From Candidatus Peribacteria bacterium (GTDB lineage: Bacteria > Patescibacteriota > Gracilibacteria > UBA1369 > LOWO2-01-FULL-3): a stretch of 35,942 nt of DNA. The stretch covers positions 1 to 35,942 of the forward strand of contig CALRGV010000010.1 of the NCBI GenBank assembly GCA_943358175.1. Direction: 5' to 3'. A program made the position numbers and the translations under genes. Below are positions 27,038-35,942 of this stretch, piece by piece. A model generated the notes under the pieces. It was not told the origin of the DNA and made no database searches. It saw nothing but the letters and a program-made list of their open reading frames with translations. Position 1 is the stretch's first letter. Each line of letters opens with the position of its first letter.

Positions 27038-27796
27038 TTATGGCGTGGAGCGTATGCTGAGATTTTTGTGAGTGAGGAGTTTTAGGGCTGGGAAATTCGT
27101 GAAAGATTTGAGGTCTGTTTTTTTTGTGTTTTGAAGTTTCGCGAGAATTTCCGGCTTGTTTTTGAGGAGGACGAGGAGATTTTTGGATTTTAGAATTGGG
27201 CCGAAAGTGAGAGTGAGGCGATTTGGGATGGCAAATGGCTTTATTGGTAGAGCTCGCTGCGTCTCCCGACTGGCAGAGCCAGTTCGTTCGTCTTGCTGCG
27301 TGCTCGCACCTTGTGCTCGCATGATGCTGTGGACAACTGTTTTCTTACTCGTGAGCTCTTTTGAGTTTGGGAAAAGTGAGGCGGTGTGACCGTCCGGGCC
27401 TATGCCGAGAATCATTAAGTCAAAAGTTTTTGGTAATTCTTTGGAATATTTTGCGAGGGATTTTTCGATGGGGAGAGAGGTGTCGAAAAAATGAAAGTGC
27501 ACATTTGAGGCGGCTGAGGAATTTGTTAGTGGCGCGAAAGATTCTGTGATCATTTTTTGATTGGAATCTTTATTAGTGGAAGGGACGTAGCGTTCATCAA
27601 CTTGGTAAAAATGGAGAGGATTTGCGAATGGCATGAAGCTCAGCTTTTTGGCTAAGGATTCGTAAATTTCTTGTGGCGTTGTGCCGCCGCTGAGAGCGAT
27701 GTTGATGCGAGTTTTTTTTTCACGAATAATTTTCAGAATAAAGTCCGCGGAGACATTGATGAAATCGTGGGGACGGGTGATGGATTGGAGGTTCAT
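27038..27796 (-). CDS. pgl: 6-phosphogluconolactonase
   Basis: Hydrolyses 6-phosphogluconolactone, step two of the oxidative pentose phosphate path. 252 residues. Family motifs: SGGTTPQEIYESL, FYQVDERYVPS, LMILGIGPDGHTASLFP and the RLTLTFGPIL strand. An insertion of about 29 residues (159-187), GC-rich and Arg/Gln/Ser-rich, separates GHTASLFP from RLTLTF, where relatives usually have a short loop. It contains a perfect inverted repeat in the DNA. It follows zwf by 26 bases in the same operon. Confidence 0.93.
   Translation of the reverse strand: MNLQSITRPHDFINVSADFILKIIREKKTRINIALSGGTTPQEIYESLAKKLSFMPFANPLHFYQVDERYVPSTNKDSNQKMITESFAPLTNSSAASNVHFHFFDTSLPIEKSLAKYSKELPKTFDLMILGIGPDGHTASLFPNSKELTSKKTVVHSIMRAQGASTQQDERTGSASRETQRALPIKPFAIPNRLTLTFGPILKSKNLLVLLKNKPEILAKLQNTKKTDLKSFTNFPALKLLTHKNLSIRSTP
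27236..27322. repeat. GC-rich in-frame insert in pgl
   Basis: About 87 bases encoding residues 159-187. Contains ACTGGC/GCCAGT around AGA (27269-27283) and two copies of TGCTCGCA. Base composition is clearly unlike the flanking pgl sequence. Confidence 0.55.
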
Positions 27797-27822
27797 GGAA
27801 TGGTGGTAGGTTTTTCTTGCGC

Positions 27823-29238
27823 TTACTTTTTTTCTGGTATGTCAAACCATTTGAAATCGTCGATTGTCGTGAGCTGATCTTGTCCTGTTGGTCCCGGTGA
27901 AAAATCTGGATATTTTTCCGGTTTCAATTTTGCTTTTTCGATGAAGGCCAGAATTTTGTCGGTGATTTGCCAAGTGGCGATGATCTCTTCGAAACTTAAG
28001 AAGTGGAGGCGACGTTTTCTGATTACGTCGAGGAGAAGCATGGAGTGTTCCGGCATAGATTCCGTGGTACTGCTTACGGTGCCCGAGGTACTAATTTCCC
28101 CACCGACAAGGCGAATATTGATTCTTTCATTCGGTTGTAATTCAAAAATTAAACGGTTTGGTTCTTCATCTTTTGGTTGAAAAGCAAATTTTTTTAATTC
28201 CACCACGACGTAAGTATGTTTTTCATCAAGTTTTTTCCCGGTGCGAATGTAAATTGGAGTTTTGTACCAACTTTCACGGTCGATAAAAAGTCTCATGGCT
28301 GCGAAAGTTTCAGTCTTGGAATTTTTTGGAATATCTTTTTCTTTGTTGTAACTTTCGTATTGGCCGAGGACGATATTTTTTCTGGATTCAATGAATTTCA
28401 AAGCGGAAAGAATACTGTATTTTTCCCGATGTAAGCCAACGGCATTTTCCGTAATTGGTATGGACATTGTGATAAGCGCGAGAATTTGCAGAAGGTGAGA
28501 TTGCACCATATCTTTAATGGTTCCCACTTGGTCAAAATATCCGGCGCGAGAGGTCACGCCGAGTTTTTCAAAAGCGGTAATTTGGATGTTTGCAACTTCC
28601 GGTCCTTTCATCATCATATTGATGAGACGATTGGAGTGGCGGAGGTGAAGAAGGCTTTGTACTGCGGCTTTTCCGAGGTAGTGGTCCAGCAGATAAATAT
28701 TTTCTTCCTTGAAATAACGAGCCACAAAGTGGAAAAGTTCACGCGCGGATTCGGTATCTTCTCCAAATGGTTTTTCTAAAATTAGGCGAATGTCTTCGTT
28801 TTCATGACGCTTTGTTTCACCAAGATTTCCGATGATATTTTGGAAAACTTGAGGAGGGACGGAAAAATAGGCGAGTGTGGTGATTTCTTTGTTGTTTGTT
28901 ATTTTGCTCAAGTGGCTGCGGAGTTTTTTGAAGTCGTCCAGTTTGTCGTATTGGCCGGAGACGTAGCTGACGTGTGAGGTTAGTTCTTTGAGAATTGTTT
29001 CGTTGAGATGCGATTTTGTCGCATGTTTGAAATGATTTTTTATGCTGTCCGAGAATTCTTTTTGGAAATTTTCTTTTTCGATTTTGGTCCTGGCGTAGCC
29101 AACAATATGGTATTCTTTTGGCAGATGTTTTTGTTCCGCCATACTGTAAAGAGCTGGAAAAAGTTTGAGTTTTGCTAGATCTCCGGAAGCACCGAAGATT
29201 ATGAGAGCGAAAGGTTTTTCGATGTGGTAGGAATTCAT
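27823..29238 (-). CDS. zwf: Glucose-6-phosphate dehydrogenase
   Basis: Oxidises glucose 6-phosphate to the lactone and makes NADPH; cytoplasmic. 471 residues. The coenzyme motif GASGDLAKLKL is at 16-26, the substrate motif LLDHYLGK near 183-190, and EKLGVTSRAGYFDQVGTIKD follows. The residue after DHYLGK is Ala, where the family usually has Glu; otherwise the active site looks normal. Promoter at 29266-29293. Upstream gene of a zwf-pgl operon. gnd, the third enzyme, is on the same strand but separated by a toxin-antitoxin pair on the other strand. Confidence 0.96.
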   Translation of the reverse strand: MNSYHIEKPFALIIFGASGDLAKLKLFPALYSMAEQKHLPKEYHIVGYARTKIEKENFQKEFSDSIKNHFKHATKSHLNETILKELTSHVSYVSGQYDKLDDFKKLRSHLSKITNNKEITTLAYFSVPPQVFQNIIGNLGETKRHENEDIRLILEKPFGEDTESARELFHFVARYFKEENIYLLDHYLGKAAVQSLLHLRHSNRLINMMMKGPEVANIQITAFEKLGVTSRAGYFDQVGTIKDMVQSHLLQILALITMSIPITENAVGLHREKYSILSALKFIESRKNIVLGQYESYNKEKDIPKNSKTETFAAMRLFIDRESWYKTPIYIRTGKKLDEKHTYVVVELKKFAFQPKDEEPNRLIFELQPNERINIRLVGGEISTSGTVSSTTESMPEHSMLLLDVIRKRRLHFLSFEEIIATWQITDKILAFIEKAKLKPEKYPDFSPGPTGQDQLTTIDDFKWFDIPEKK

Positions 29239-29265
29239 AGAGAGAGATGATGAGGAAACATTTTT

Positions 29266-29293
29266 ATTATAGACTCTTTTGATTTCACTACAA
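29266..29293 (-). promoter_or_regulatory. zwf-pgl promoter
   Basis: Minus strand: perfect -10 TATAAT at 29266-29271, 16-nt spacer, weak -35 TTGTAG at 29288-29293, about 28 nt before the zwf start. Confidence 0.6.
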
Positions 29294-29373
29294 TAATTGT
29301 TTTGAGTTTATTTTGGATTAGCTATTCTTATTATTTTTGTCTTTTTTTTCTGAGAAATTTGTTGAGGTTGGCC

Positions 29374-29402
29374 TTGTTATTTTTTATCTTTCTTGATATA
29401 CT
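29374..29402 (+). promoter_or_regulatory. Promoter of the AbrB/RelE-type operon
   Basis: -35 TTGTTA at 29374-29379, 17-nt spacer, -10 TATACT at 29397-29402, 28 nt before the antitoxin ATG. The repeated CTTATTT units between -10 and start could bind the antitoxin. Confidence 0.55.
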
Positions 29403-29430
29403 ATTTACGTACTTACTTATTTGCTTATTT

Positions 29431-29661
29431 ATGGTTAAGGTTTTGCATTCTACTTCCAGAGGTCAGATTACTCTTCCAAAAGAGTGGAGGGATGGTTTTG
29501 ATACTGATTATTTCAAGGTTGAAATTCAAAAAGATAAATTGATTATTGTTCCGATGAATCCGGAAAAATCATTTAAAAATAGGGTGGAAGAATCTTGGCA
29601 GCAATATGAAGATGGAATGTTTATCAGTAATGAAGATTTGAAGAAAAAATATGGTTTATAG
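29431..29661 (+). CDS. AbrB/MazE-like antitoxin
   Basis: 76 residues from the chosen start. The N-terminus MVKVLHSTSRGQITLPKEWR is the swapped-hairpin AbrB DNA-binding fold. An earlier in-frame ATG at 29302 would add a 43-residue very hydrophobic leader, but that is translation of a T-rich promoter region; the promoter lies inside it. It overlaps the toxin start by 11 nt. Confidence 0.88.
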   Translation: MVKVLHSTSRGQITLPKEWRDGFDTDYFKVEIQKDKLIIVPMNPEKSFKNRVEESWQQYEDGMFISNEDLKKKYGL

Positions 29662-29923
29662 TCTTGTTTATACTAATCAGGCAGAAAAAGATTTGGACAG
29701 GATTGATAAGGTTATGGCTGTTCGAATTTTGAAGAAAATGGATTCTTTTGTGAAGTTATCTAATCCTTTGGTTAAGGCGAAGCAGTTAACTGGATTCGAT
29801 ATTCCAACTTATAGATTTAGAGTGGGCGACTATAGAATAGTTTTCAGAAAGGATATTAAAACTAATTGTTTAGTGATATTGGTGGTATTGAGCGTAGCGC
29901 ATAGGAAAGAGGTTTATAAGTGA
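29651..29923 (+). CDS. RelE/ParE-family toxin
   Basis: 90 residues, a RelE-like fold: YTNQAEKDLDRIDKVMAVRI in the helical start, then PTYRFRVGDYRIVFRKD and a final VLSVAHRKEVYK. The closing pattern R-x-x-x-Y is typical of mRNA interferases; this fits a ribosome-dependent mRNA nuclease, but a gyrase-type ParE cannot be excluded. Overlaps the antitoxin by 11 nt. Ends two bases before the end of the convergent gnd. Confidence 0.92.
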   Translation: MVYSLVYTNQAEKDLDRIDKVMAVRILKKMDSFVKLSNPLVKAKQLTGFDIPTYRFRVGDYRIVFRKDIKTNCLVILVVLSVAHRKEVYK

Positions 29924-29925
29924 TT

Positions 29926-31362
29926 TCAATCCCACTCCGTGTGAAATGAACCTTTTTTGTCGGTGCGTTCGTAGCCGTGGGCGCCGAAAAAGTCGCGTTG
30001 GGCTTGGATGAGATTCTGGGGGAGATGTGCTTTGGCGTAGGAATCGTAAAAATTTAGTGAGGCGGAGAAAGCGGGGATCGGGATTGCGGATTCGAGAGAG
30101 AGTGTGAGAAGTCTGCGCCAGGATTTTTGTTTTGGGCCGGCGAATAGGTTTGTGATTTTTTTGAATATTTTTGTTGCGGCAGTTTTGTCTTTGCCGAGAC
30201 CGATTGTCAGATTTTTCAGGTAGGTTGAGCGAATGATACAGCCGCCTTGCCAAATGCGAGTGATTTCCGCCAGGTCGAGATTCCAGTTATATTCTTTGCT
30301 GGATTGAGTGAGTAGGCCTACGCCTTGTTCGTAGCAGAGAATGATGGAGAGTTCGAGAGCGTTTTCTAATTGAGTGATGAGATTTTTCTTTCCGCTTGAT
30401 GTGAGTTTTTTGGCTGTGGGAGTGAGTTTTAGGACTTTGCACATTTGGCGGCCTTTAGTATCGCCGGAGACTATGCGGGCGTCGACGGCGGCGTTGATGG
30501 TTGGGATGAATACGCCTAAGTCATGTGCAATTTCCGTGGTCCATTTGCCGGTGCCTTTTTGGCCGGCGGAATCTTTGATAAAGTCGATAAGATAGGCATC
30601 TTTTTTAGATGATTCCGGGTCTTTTTTTGCGAAAATTTTCGCGGTGATTTCGATGAGAAAAGATTTGAGATTCGGATTTTTATTGTAGCCGGAGAATATT
30701 TTTGCGAGTTCGGGATTGCTGAATTTTCCGAGATTTTTGAGAATGTCGTAACTCTCAGCTAGAAGCTGCATGATGGCGTACTCGATGCCGTTGTGGACCA
30801 TTTTTACAAAGTGGCCGCTGCCGAAATCTCCAAGATGTACGACGCAGGGTTTTCCTCCGAAATCTTTTGCGGCGATTTTTTCAAAAATTGGACGAATTTT
30901 TTCCCAAGCGGATTTGTCTCCGCCGGGCATGAGTGATGGGCCGTGGAGGGCACCTTCTTCACCGCCGGAAATTCCGCAGCCGATGAAGTGAAGATTGCGA
31001 GTGGCGAGCTCTTTTTGTCTTCTTTCGGTGTCCTTGAAGTGTGAATTTCCACAGTCAATGATGATGTCGTTTTTGTCTAAGAGAGGGCTTAATTCGGTAA
31101 TCATGTCATCTACCGGTTTGCCGGCTTTTACGAGGAGAATTATTTTGCGTGGAGTTTCGAGACTGGCGACGAATTCTTTGAGAGTTTTACTGCCGTGTAA
31201 TTTATCTCCAGATTCTTTTCCAAAATCTTTAATAAACTTATCAGTCTTTTCAGTGGTGCGATTGAACACGCTAATTGAGAATCCTTTATTCGCAATATTG
31301 CGAGCGAGATTCGCGCCCATTGTGGCGAGGCCGATGAGACCGATGGCTGATTTATCTTTCAA
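29926..31362 (-). CDS. gnd: 6-phosphogluconate dehydrogenase (decarboxylating)
   Basis: Makes ribulose 5-phosphate, CO2 and NADPH. 478 residues. Seen: GLATMG (11-16) in the NADP fold, GCGISGGEEGALHGPSLMPG, GSGHFVKMVHNGIEYA with the catalytic Lys and His/Asn, and QAQRDFFGAHGYERTD near the end. The start codon is TTG: upstream in frame there are only ATT/ATC before a stop, and the TTG lies inside the end of the LOG-family gene (11-nt overlap). This suggests coupled translation. It ends in TGA. Confidence 0.95.
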   Translation of the reverse strand: MKDKSAIGLIGLATMGANLARNIANKGFSISVFNRTTEKTDKFIKDFGKESGDKLHGSKTLKEFVASLETPRKIILLVKAGKPVDDMITELSPLLDKNDIIIDCGNSHFKDTERRQKELATRNLHFIGCGISGGEEGALHGPSLMPGGDKSAWEKIRPIFEKIAAKDFGGKPCVVHLGDFGSGHFVKMVHNGIEYAIMQLLAESYDILKNLGKFSNPELAKIFSGYNKNPNLKSFLIEITAKIFAKKDPESSKKDAYLIDFIKDSAGQKGTGKWTTEIAHDLGVFIPTINAAVDARIVSGDTKGRQMCKVLKLTPTAKKLTSSGKKNLITQLENALELSIILCYEQGVGLLTQSSKEYNWNLDLAEITRIWQGGCIIRSTYLKNLTIGLGKDKTAATKIFKKITNLFAGPKQKSWRRLLTLSLESAIPIPAFSASLNFYDSYAKAHLPQNLIQAQRDFFGAHGYERTDKKGSFHTEWD

Positions 31363-32044
31363 GATAATGTTTGTTACTTAGTTCTGTTCCATTTGCGAAT
31401 TTTTCATGAGCCTTCAAGATTATTTTCATCGCTTCTTTATTGTTTTTTGCGATGTGTACACAAGTCATTTCATGTGGACTGATTAGGCCGTCTTTCAAAG
31501 GATATTTCTTGACCCATTTCATTAATTTTTTCCACATTTTTCCTACGAGAATAATTGGGATTGGATGAATATGTCCCACTTGAATTAATTGCCAGGTGTA
31601 GAAAAATTCCAGACAACTGCCGACTCCACCGGGCATGACCACCACAACGCTGGAGAGTGCCATAAAATTATCCAGACGATCTGAGAATTTGGCGAAATGT
31701 TTGCGAAGATCGAGATGTTTGTTGTCGCCTTGTTCGTGAGGTAATTTAATTGCTAAACCGATGCTGTCGGAATGATTTTTGGGATCGCCGGCTTCGTGAC
31801 CGGCATTGCCGGCATCCATTAGTCCGGGACCACCACCGGTTACGACATCAAAGCCTTGTTCACCAATTTCTTTAGCTAAATTGAAAACTTGTATGTAAAT
31901 TTTATCATCGGGCTTGGTGCGGGCGGAACCAAAAATTGTCACGCGAAAATCTGAGCGACGCAGTTCTTTCAGTAGACTGTTGCGACGACTGCGTACTTTC
32001 TTAATTGTTTTTTTGATCGATTCTTTGGTGATTTTTTTAGGCAT
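31352..32044 (-). CDS. LOG-family nucleotide phosphoribohydrolase-like protein
   Basis: 230 residues of the LOG/TIGR00730 (lysine-decarboxylase-like) family. Characterised members cut nucleoside monophosphates to base and ribose 5-phosphate. Seen: VTGGGPGLMDAGNAGH and VVVMPGGVGSCLEFFYTWQL, matching the PGGxGTxxE catalytic motif with Ser-Cys in place of the usual Thr-x; the Glu is kept. The N-terminal ~30 residues are Lys/Arg-rich. First gene before gnd, with an 11-nt overlap, so the two are one operon. Ribose 5-phosphate release would feed the same pathway, but this is inference. Confidence 0.88.
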   Translation of the reverse strand: MPKKITKESIKKTIKKVRSRRNSLLKELRRSDFRVTIFGSARTKPDDKIYIQVFNLAKEIGEQGFDVVTGGGPGLMDAGNAGHEAGDPKNHSDSIGLAIKLPHEQGDNKHLDLRKHFAKFSDRLDNFMALSSVVVVMPGGVGSCLEFFYTWQLIQVGHIHPIPIILVGKMWKKLMKWVKKYPLKDGLISPHEMTCVHIAKNNKEAMKIILKAHEKFANGTELSNKHYLER

Positions 32045-32073
32045 GAGGATGGAGGATTATTTTTCTATTGTTG

Positions 32074-32102
32074 ATTCTAGCAAATTGAATTGAAAAAGAT
32101 AA
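32074..32102 (-). promoter_or_regulatory. Possible promoter of LOG-gnd
   Basis: Minus strand: TAGAAT at 32074-32079 with a poor -35 TTATCT at 32097-32102 (17-nt spacer), about 29 nt before the start. Confidence 0.4.
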
Positions 32103-32199
32103 TATTAATTAGCCATTATTTTACCTTTTTAGTAAATATGTTTTAGGGTTTTATTGTTGTATTTAGCGGTTTATTTCTGTTACCTTGCTCTCCTTTAAG

Positions 32200-32205
32200 T
32201 ATATT
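32200..32205 (+). promoter_or_regulatory. Possible -10 box of gltB
   Basis: TATATT only six bases before the ATG at 32212. No good -35 is visible at the right distance. If real, this mRNA would be leaderless. Confidence 0.35.
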
Positions 32206-32211
32206 TGGGCA

Positions 32212-35200
32212 ATGTTTACGGAAAATAGACTGATTTACAAAGAGGGTAAAGAGTATGATCGTCTTCAGGGAGTTGGTCCTTTTTGGCGCAATGTTCCTAA
32301 GGATCATGATAGTTGTGGTATTGGCTTTGTTTCAACAAAGGAAGGGACAAGAAGTGCGGTAGATTTGGCTTTGACCGGACTTTGTGGAATGAAGGATAGA
32401 ACCGGTGAGGCTTTTAAAGCGGGAGATGGTGCCGGTGTGATTTTTGAAACTGGGAGTTCCAGGGATTTTTGGGCGAAACAATATGCTGAGGCTCATCCCG
32501 GGAATGGTATGAATATTGAAGGACATGATCAACTTTCCGTTGGTATGTTCTTTTTTGAACCGGAACTTGGTGAAGATCCTAAATCACAGAAAAAAAGAAT
32601 TGAATCGATAATGAAGCAGCAAGGTGTGCATGTGCATGGTTGGAGGAAGGTTCCTCTTAATGATTCCGTTTTGCCCGGCCATGTGAATGCCACAAGGCCT
32701 TCTGTTTGGCAATTGATGTATTCCCCAAAGCCGGGAATGTTGAAACATCATTACGATCAACAACTTTTTTATGCTCAACAAAGAGTGGAGAGGGAAATGC
32801 GCGGGGTATATCCGGTTTCTTTGAATGCGGCGACAGTAACCTATAAAGCTAAAGCAACACCAGGACAATTCAGGCATCTTTATACAGATCTTAATGATCC
32901 AATGTTGGTTTCCAGAAATATTGGTTTTCATGCCAGAATGGGTACAAATACCGAAGTGACTTGGCCTAATACTCAGCCCGGAAGAAAGCTATTTCATAAC
33001 GGAGAACTTGTGAGTGATGCGGCTCAAAGTAGCGCGCAGGCTGATCTGGAAAGACGTTTGGGTATAACTGGTGAAGGGGAGGATTGCGTGACTGTTTCAC
33101 ACGGTAGAAGTGATACCATGCATCTTGATGGAATGGTTCAGGTTTTAATGGCTCATGGAGTGCAATCCCATCAGGCATTGCTGAGAAGAATGGCCAGGGC
33201 GACTGATGATAAATGGAGATATTCTGATAAAGTAAATGCTTTAAATGATGATATTTGGCGTACTCAGGGACCTTTGGGTTCCGGACAGGGTCCTGCGGCA
33301 ATTGTGTCTGTCACGGGAAAGAGAATTAGTATAGCGATGGATAATATGGGTCTTAGAACTTTTTGGATTTATGGAAATGATAAGGTGGTGGTTGGTAGTT
33401 CGGAAGTTGGTGCTCCCGCCGTAAATTTGAGTGAACTGAAATTTGCTCATAGATTGCAAGGTGGTGATATTGCTTATGTTGATAAGGGACATTTGGTGCT
33501 GCCGGAAGTGGCTATTGAAAGAATTGCTCAGCAGACTCGTTTGAAAGTGACCGGTGATAAGCGTTTCTTTTTTCTTGATCAAAAGCCTCATGAATTAATT
33601 TCCGAGGGGGCTGAAAAACCTTCAGCGGAACTTTTAATTAAACTTTGGAATCAGATTGGTGGTGATCAATATGCAATGGAAGTGATTAAAAGCATGGTGG
33701 TGGATTCGAAGGAGCCAATTAAGGGAATGGGAGATGATAGGCCTTTGCCGATATTGTCTTTGGCGCGTTTGAGGGTGGCGGAATATTTTGCTCAAATGGG
33801 TGGTGTGGTGACAAATCCTCCGGTGGATCCACTCCGAGAAGGCGATGCTATGGATACCAGAGTAACTCTAGGAAAGGATCCAAAGCAATTAGATCAGTAC
33901 GATCCTGATAATTACGAATCCTATGCTGAGTTTATTGCAGAATCTTCTTTGTTGAATCCGGCTCAATTCAAGGAACTTATAGAAGGTAATAAATTGGAGA
34001 ATGGTGATAAGCCAAAGCATGTGGTGATAGATACTACTTTTGATGGAGCATCTGGTTCGGATATGCAGAAAAGATTGGATGAAATAATTGCAGGAGTGGT
34101 TGAAATTGCGGATGAGGAAGGGGCTCCGCCGATAATTGTTTTAAGTGATAAAGCTTGTGGAAACAGTGAAAGGCTTTTTGTTCCACCGGTATTTTTGGTG
34201 TCCGGTATACATCAGGCTTTGAGAGCAAAAGGTCTTAGGGATAATGTGAAATTGGTTTTTGATACGATGGATGTCGTGGAAACTCATGATATGGCGCTTT
34301 TGGTGGCTCAAGGTGCCGATGCTGTCTATCCACGTCTTTTATGGGAGATGGTTAGCAGTGATGCCGTGAAGTTTAAAAATGATAAAAAGGAAGATGTTCC
34401 GGTCGAACAGCGTATGGAAAATTTGCAAAAGGCGATGATTGAACAGTTTAAAGTGGTGATGTCTAAGTATGGAGTGGTGACAAATGGTGCATATAAGGGG
34501 TCGTGCTATTTTGAGATTTTGGGGCTTTCACATGAGATTGCGCAGAAATATTTTCCATATAACGCTTCACGTATAGGAGGTTTGGATTTTGATGATTTGG
34601 TGGAAGATCAGATTGAGAGGTTGAAAGAGAAAGCCAGGTTTAGAAGTGTGAAAGAAGCTAGTTCACGTAAAGGTCAAGTGATGAAATGGATGAACCAGAT
34701 TTTGTTGCAAGAAGACGTTAAAACTCCGGATGAGGCTTATGAAAAATTGGTTGAGTATATTGATAATGAGCGTGATCCGATTTTCTTGCGTGATTTGTTG
34801 GATTTTGTCTGGGGATCGGAAAGAGAAGATGGCTGTGAGTTGCCACTTGGGGAAGTAGAATCCGTAGCTTCAATTATTTGTAGGCATTTCAGAGGGGCAC
34901 AGATGTCTGATGGTGCTTTGAATGGTGTGGCGCACGCGGCTATTGCAGTAGCAATTAATGAATTGGCGGAAGAATTGATGCCGCAAATTTATGATCCTTC
35001 GCACAAAATGTGTAATGGTGAATTGCCATTGGGATTTGCTCCAAAAGATTTTGATAAAGGTTACAGCAAGAGACTCGATCCACGTCCAAAGTCCGGTAGT
35101 GGTGAGGGTGGTGAGGATGCTTCACGACATCCGGGTGCGGAATTTGCGGAAGCATGTAGCATGTCTAAACAAATTGCTTCCGGACGTTTTGGTGTGGATG

Positions 35201-35942
35201 CCTATTATATTATGAGTGTCGGGGATGATGGTGAAATGCAAATAAAGATTGGGCAGGGTGCAAAACCATATGAAGGTGGGCACGTGAAAGGTCATAAGAT
35301 TGATAAACGTTTGGCTAAACAAAGAGGTACGCGCGAGGGCAATGATTTGATTTCACCGCCAACTCAGCATGATATTTATTCGATTGAAGATTTGATGAGA
35401 TTGATTTGGGATATCAGAGCGGTGCATCCGCAAATCAAGACCGTGAGCGTGAAAGTTACTACAAAAGCCGGAATTGGTACTATCGGAGTCGGTGTGGCAA
35501 AAGCCGGGGCTGATAAGGTTACAGCGAGTGGTCGTGAAGGTGGTACCGGTGCGGCTAAGTCCAGCGCTACCAGACATACCGGTTCACCGCTTGAGCTTGG
35601 TATTTTGGAAATGTTTGCGAGTTTGAAGAAAGTGGGCATGGTGGATAAAATGAGAATTGAGGTTGATGGGGGAATTATTACCGGAGCTGATGTAGTGAAA
35701 TTGGCCATTATGGGTGCGGATGAATTTGGTTTTGGTACTTCTTTGTTGCAGGCCGGTGAAGGATGTATTTTCTGTAATGCTTGTGCGGACGGTACGGAGG
35801 AGACTGGTTGTCCGGTGGGAATTTGTATTCCACCTGAGGATGGAGGTGCGAGACTTGGATTTGGCGCGAAGGCGGTGAAATATCTTAAGAAGGGTGACCC
35901 GATGAAATTTGATGATCAGCTAACTAAATGTAAGAATGCCAC
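32212..35942 (+). CDS. gltB: Glutamate synthase large subunit, divergent (3' end cut)
   Basis: Open from the ATG to the window edge, 1243 codons of an expected ~1500. N-terminal class II glutaminase: nucleophile Cys35 (DSCGIGF), then HARMGTNT, FHNGEL and GRSDTMHLDG. Cys35 is preceded by a 34-residue leader that would be cut off. The usual HRGA near the N-terminus is replaced by KDRTGEA. The FMN synthase domain is clear: SGEGGEDASRHPG, IASGRFGVDAYYIMS, IGQGAKPYEGGH, ISPPTQHDIYSIEDL, VSVKVTTKAGIGTIGVGVAKA and GREGGTGAAKSS. The iron-sulfur region has Cys at 1185, 1188, 1191, 1200 and 1205, unlike the normal three. The family makes two glutamates from glutamine and 2-oxoglutarate with NADPH or ferredoxin as donor. 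The C-terminal domain lies outside the window. Confidence 0.92.
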   Translation, partial: MFTENRLIYKEGKEYDRLQGVGPFWRNVPKDHDSCGIGFVSTKEGTRSAVDLALTGLCGMKDRTGEAFKAGDGAGVIFETGSSRDFWAKQYAEAHPGNGMNIEGHDQLSVGMFFFEPELGEDPKSQKKRIESIMKQQGVHVHGWRKVPLNDSVLPGHVNATRPSVWQLMYSPKPGMLKHHYDQQLFYAQQRVEREMRGVYPVSLNAATVTYKAKATPGQFRHLYTDLNDPMLVSRNIGFHARMGTNTEVTWPNTQPGRKLFHNGELVSDAAQSSAQADLERRLGITGEGEDCVTVSHGRSDTMHLDGMVQVLMAHGVQSHQALLRRMARATDDKWRYSDKVNALNDDIWRTQGPLGSGQGPAAIVSVTGKRISIAMDNMGLRTFWIYGNDKVVVGSSEVGAPAVNLSELKFAHRLQGGDIAYVDKGHLVLPEVAIERIAQQTRLKVTGDKRFFFLDQKPHELISEGAEKPSAELLIKLWNQIGGDQYAMEVIKSMVVDSKEPIKGMGDDRPLPILSLARLRVAEYFAQMGGVVTNPPVDPLREGDAMDTRVTLGKDPKQLDQYDPDNYESYAEFIAESSLLNPAQFKELIEGNKLENGDKPKHVVIDTTFDGASGSDMQKRLDEIIAGVVEIADEEGAPPIIVLSDKACGNSERLFVPPVFLVSGIHQALRAKGLRDNVKLVFDTMDVVETHDMALLVAQGADAVYPRLLWEMVSSDAVKFKNDKKEDVPVEQRMENLQKAMIEQFKVVMSKYGVVTNGAYKGSCYFEILGLSHEIAQKYFPYNASRIGGLDFDDLVEDQIERLKEKARFRSVKEASSRKGQVMKWMNQILLQEDVKTPDEAYEKLVEYIDNERDPIFLRDLLDFVWGSEREDGCELPLGEVESVASIICRHFRGAQMSDGALNGVAHAAIAVAINELAEELMPQIYDPSHKMCNGELPLGFAPKDFDKGYSKRLDPRPKSGSGEGGEDASRHPGAEFAEACSMSKQIASGRFGVDAYYIMSVGDDGEMQIKIGQGAKPYEGGHVKGHKIDKRLAKQRGTREGNDLISPPTQHDIYSIEDLMRLIWDIRAVHPQIKTVSVKVTTKAGIGTIGVGVAKAGADKVTASGREGGTGAAKSSATRHTGSPLELGILEMFASLKKVGMVDKMRIEVDGGIITGADVVKLAIMGADEFGFGTSLLQAGEGCIFCNACADGTEETGCPVGICIPPEDGGARLGFGAKAVKYLKKGDPMKFDDQLTKCKNA

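Follow-up and report, generated by a model that had tools for sequence, protein, structure and literature searches.

What kind of iron–sulfur cluster does a glutamate synthase carry when its cluster loop offers four cysteines instead of three, and what reduces that cluster when no partner subunit can be found? These questions are raised by gltB at the 3′ end of a 35,942-nucleotide stretch from a Candidatus Peribacteria bacterium, a tiny groundwater organism (positions 1 to 35,942 of contig CALRGV010000010.1, or C10, with a G+C content of 41.9%; we call this whole stretch the window). Judged from its sequence, the encoded protein is a full-length bacterial-type glutamate synthase (GltS) large subunit with a four-cysteine cluster loop, that is, a conserved though modest departure from a familiar enzyme. 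Our favored account, to which we give a probability of roughly 55% as a whole, is that these cysteines form a [4Fe-4S] site fed by a soluble carrier without GltD. GltS enzymologists have debated why the cluster is [3Fe-4S] and not [4Fe-4S], and how its potential suits the step at flavin mononucleotide (FMN); if the account is true, a natural full-length GltB with a fourth ligand would provide a test system for the effect of cluster type on electron entry.

The gltB frame starts at an ATG at 32212 and leaves the window at its contig end, so that codons 1–1243 of 1609 lie within 32212–35942 on the plus strand. The last 39 base pairs of the contig (35904–35942) are identical to the end of another contig in this assembly, C6 (L002 6903–6941), and the frame resumes on the minus strand of C6 from 91940, for a total product of 1,609 residues; from this overlap, the two contigs appear to be joinable within gltB. 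Pfam matches place a glutaminase domain (GATase_2) at residues 35–431 (32314–33504), the GltB central domain (Glu_syn_central) at 490–773 (33679–34530), the FMN-binding synthase domain (Glu_synthase, also supported by alignment) at 960–1205 (35089–35826), all on the plus strand, and the GXGXG domain in the part encoded on C6: the four domains of bacterial GltB (alpha-GltS) in a single chain. Cys35 aligns with the catalytic N-terminal cysteine, which implies a propeptide of 34 residues, and is retained in all eight relatives that cover the position. The synthase domain keeps the motifs KQIASGRFGV, QGAKP and SPPxxHDIYSIEDL.

The cluster region reads GEGCIFCNACADGTEETGCPVGIC. Translation from the ATG puts five cysteines where the original prediction had placed them: Cys1185 (codon 35764–35766), Cys1188 (35773–35775), Cys1191 (35782–35784), Cys1200 (35809–35811) and Cys1205 (35824–35826), with the loop Cys1185-x2-Cys1188-x2-Cys1191-x8-Cys1200-Pro spanning 35764–35811, plus strand throughout. 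In an alignment with solved structures (B. subtilis 7mfm, Azospirillum 1ea0/6s6s and the ferredoxin-dependent enzyme, Fd-GltS, of Synechocystis, 1llw), Cys1185, 1191 and 1200 match the C-x5-C-x4-C ligands of the [3Fe-4S] cluster, as had been proposed, and Cys1188 is indeed additional, the position three residues after the first cysteine (+3) being Met, Val or Ala in the solved proteins. A four-residue gap in those proteins falls between the last two cluster cysteines; the corresponding insertion here lies at 35797–35808 (plus strand), although its placement within the loop is approximate. The proposed likeness to a 4Fe-4S ferredoxin motif is correct for C-x2-C-x2-C but not for the remainder: before the last cysteine this protein has x8, and most relatives x4, rather than the x3 of C-x2-C-x2-C-x3-C-P. 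The last cysteine of that ferredoxin motif ligates the other cluster, whereas in GltB all cluster ligands lie within one loop. Cys1205 stands outside the four-cysteine signature because Azospirillum GltB has its equivalent too (CPVGVC), and as a fifth ligand it was rejected, being Cys in only three of ten relatives.

Those relatives come from a search of 353 genomes of the class, 11 of which, including this one, encode a full-length GltB (five additional matches were shorter GltB relatives). Identity of the ten synthase domains to that of this GltB ranges from 34 to 61%; the nearest named relative is Candidatus Peregrinibacteria L086 (JACPLZ010000048). Cys1185, 1191 and 1200 are cysteines in all ten, and nine also have Cys at position 1188; the exception, G092, has Gln there. 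Since the other cysteines of this GltB, Cys35 and the cluster site excepted, are common to at most two of the ten, the presence of Cys1188 is not a matter of chance; it is retained across several GltB subclades. The expansion between the last two cysteines is as unusual as the original prediction held: four residues separate them in most relatives, five in G061 and three in G092, and eight are found only in this gene among all sampled sequences (x3–x5 in the others). In the closest relative, G015, gltB (contig 29; L030 5625–10296) is broken into several frames by stops and may be a pseudogene or affected by sequencing errors.

Outside the class, the +3 cysteine also occurs, with x4 spacing, in a Bacteroidales GltB (CVMCRKCNTDTCPTGI) and in archaeal-type GltB of Bacillota (CHLCQKCHTGLCAWGI). 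For ordinary GltB, the four-cysteine pattern appears to be rare. We scanned 247 genomes from the phylum of the Bacteroidales relative for a C-x5-C-x4-C GltB-type pattern: among the 150 matches listed, 149 were free of stops, and 148 of these lack the +3 cysteine, the sole match with it coming from the genome on which the scan was centred and whose GltB was previously known. A scan for the four-cysteine pattern in 398 genomes from the phylum of the Clostridiales relative gave matches in 52; three of the 20 loci that were read (L122, L133 and L134) encode archaeal-type GltBs, in which a ferredoxin domain is followed by a Glu_synthase domain with C-x2-C-x2-C-x4-C at the place homologous to the GltB cluster loop. 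Several other Bacillota four-cysteine loci were rejected as GltB on translation, which showed unrelated iron–sulfur proteins, and PF01645 matches in 380 phylum genomes, mostly weak and in proteins of other sizes, were taken as cross-hits to barrels of the FMN/inosine monophosphate dehydrogenase type. Loci L124–L132 encode Bacillota proteins of ~340–390 residues with an N-terminal C-x2-C-P-x-C-D-G-R-x-C-P-T-G-V resembling the GltB cluster loop. In a tree of 20 synthase domains, the full-length GltBs form one clade (100/100) and archaeal-type GltB stands apart; the order of the Peregrinibacteria subclades and ordinary GltB is left unsettled, and the fourth cysteine may be either ancient or repeatedly gained.

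The [3Fe-4S] cluster has been likened to a [4Fe-4S] cube minus one iron (PMC8097209). Because the C-x5-C of GltB matches ferredoxin spacing, a cysteine at +3 stands at the expected spot for the fourth ligand. In three-iron ferredoxins, the absent ligand is the middle cysteine of C-x2-C-x2-C. Cys1188, replacing the Met, Ala or Val of ordinary GltB, would thus occupy the position that the [3Fe-4S] site leaves free of a ligand, and together with Cys1185, 1191 and 1200 it would hold a [4Fe-4S] cluster adjoining the FMN. We infer that Cys1188 is a ligand and consider a [4Fe-4S] cluster likely; this earlier suggestion has held up at the level of sequence, with Cys1188 kept in nine of the ten relatives and recurring in archaeal-type GltB.

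As for the electron source, the [3Fe-4S] cluster of NADPH-dependent GltS receives electrons from the [4Fe-4S] clusters of GltD, and that of Fd-GltS from reduced ferredoxin (PMC8097209). The GltD N-terminal domain (PF14691, Fer4_20) was found neither in this genome (99% complete) nor in the ten other Peregrinibacteria with full-length GltB, five of which are at least 90% complete; it is present in all three outside genomes with GltB. The few GltB-bearing Patescibacteria therefore appear to operate GltB without GltD, and a soluble donor would be needed, as in Fd-GltS. The expectation that gltD or a ferredoxin might adjoin gltB past the window was not borne out, as neither is next to the gene, including on C6. 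The sole ferredoxin found in the genome is one small [2Fe-2S] protein, encoded on contig C9 (15758–15991) far from gltB; no clear dicluster ferredoxin turned up, and no search was aimed at flavodoxins, rubredoxins, ferredoxin-NADP reductases or glutamine synthetase. Several matches to CxxCxxCxxxC in the genome were rejected as ferredoxins, the one clear protein among them resembling, by eye, epoxyqueuosine reductase QueG. In the mechanism we envisage, a soluble carrier, for which the lone [2Fe-2S] ferredoxin is the best candidate found, would deliver electrons singly to the cluster; the cluster would hand them to FMN, and the FMN electrons would reduce 2-iminoglutarate formed from 2-oxoglutarate and glutamine-derived ammonia. 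We infer that this GltB has glutamate synthase activity, with ferredoxin as a plausible donor.

A different donor would fit either cluster type: NADPH could feed GltB through an unrecognised flavoprotein other than GltD. Here and in several relatives gltB adjoins the NADPH-yielding genes zwf, pgl, gnd and tkt, and the genome encodes two candidate flavoproteins, one thioredoxin-reductase-like and one NDH-2-like, but neither is next to gltB, the former retains its CxxC (CALC), and gene neighbourhood is a weak guide to the donor. We regard this route as possible, if on the unlikely side.

Several observations weigh against a four-cysteine [4Fe-4S] site fed by a soluble carrier. The Bacteroidales genome holds a four-cysteine GltB plus GltD, so the four-cysteine form alone is not proof of ferredoxin dependence, and we rejected the fourth cysteine by itself as a sign of it. 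The ferredoxin-like donor of the original prediction thus keeps the support of the missing GltD (11 of 11 genomes) but not that of the extra cysteine, and the only candidate is of the [2Fe-2S] type. The alignment also shows no Fd-GltS insertion at its usual place, the segment being no longer than in NADPH-type GltB (we take the ferredoxin loop of Fd-GltS to sit after the GGED motif). The private x8 spacing might distort the loop, and an AlphaFold2 model of residues 440–1243 built with five usable sequences had a mean predicted local distance difference test score (pLDDT) of 41 and a predicted template modeling score (pTM) of 0.37, leaving the geometry unreadable. Finally, G092 has Gln in place of Cys1188 and manages without it, and together with the invariance of the classical trio, as opposed to nine of ten for Cys1188, this would also suit a cluster that remains [3Fe-4S] on Cys1185, 1191 and 1200, with Cys1188 as a nearby, non-permanent ligand or with switching between [3Fe-4S] and [4Fe-4S] according to redox state or iron supply. 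We consider this unlikely, as a spectator residue poorly explains why Cys is kept at the vacant-ligand spot in both divergent and archaeal-type GltBs. That the insertion marks a loop drifting in one lineage, with a cluster or enzyme no longer fully functional, is very improbable: the unique x8 spacing and the stops in G015 gltB would agree with it, but the 1,609 codons are open, the insertion is in frame, and the catalytic motifs, classical cysteines and extra cysteine are all intact.

Among known systems, NADPH-type GltB (alpha-GltS; Azospirillum 1ea0 and 6s6x, B. subtilis 7mfm) has the same domain order, size, synthase motifs and three cysteines, whereas our protein adds the +3 cysteine, the x8 spacing and an insert near residues 920–958, in a genome without gltD. 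Fd-GltS (Synechocystis 1llw/1ofd) works as a large subunit without GltD, for which no gene was found here either, and has the same domains and classical three cysteines, but this GltB has no insertion between GGED and KQIASGRFG and has the extra cysteine and a different upstream insert. That insert of ~40 residues (34969–35085, plus strand) lies directly before SGSGEGGED, at a site that differs from the Fd-GltS loop, and only G015 and L086 have a shorter version; that it could be a docking element is a guess. Archaeal-type GltB, first described from M. jannaschii (PMC2483277), shares C-x2-C-x2-C-x4-C at the homologous place. In the Bacillota examples (~490–590 residues) it consists of an N-terminal 2x[4Fe-4S] ferredoxin domain plus the synthase domain, with no glutaminase or GXGXG domain, and forms a separate clade, whereas this GltB has a glutaminase domain and no such ferredoxin domain.

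In the window, gltB is preceded by genes on the minus strand: a LOG/TIGR00730 family protein (31352–32044), divergent from gltB and also adjoining it in six of the relatives examined, then gnd (NADP-dependent 6-phosphogluconate dehydrogenase, 29926–31362), zwf (glucose-6-phosphate dehydrogenase, 27823–29238) and pgl (6-phosphogluconolactonase, 27038–27796). Downstream, on C6, lie a gene for an RNA-binding protein and, farther off, the transketolase gene tkt (L002 617–2668), so that gltB is flanked by oxidative pentose-phosphate genes and transketolase; the neighbourhood is similar in relatives. This pathway is reported to be patchy across Patescibacteria (PMC7304191).

When the region (27038–35942 of the window; L036, L037 and L038) is compared with two genomes of the same genus (G002 and G003), GltB is only 29% identical and the flanking genes 65–96%: gnd 77–78%, zwf 87%, tkt 83%, the RNA-binding protein 94–96%, LOG 67–76% and pgl 65%. 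Such a disparity suggests that gltB was replaced within its slot, or that ancient paralogues were sorted differently, and the fourth cysteine persists across these apparent replacements. It is tempting to extend the picture to all full-length GltS of Peregrinibacteria, with a native [4Fe-4S] cluster, a soluble [2Fe-2S] ferredoxin as direct donor without GltD, and divergent alleles swapped in one slot beside NADPH-producing pentose-phosphate genes, but we consider so broad a generalization doubtful. In G015, which belongs to a different genus, GltB and gnd are 52% and 56% identical to those of this genome.
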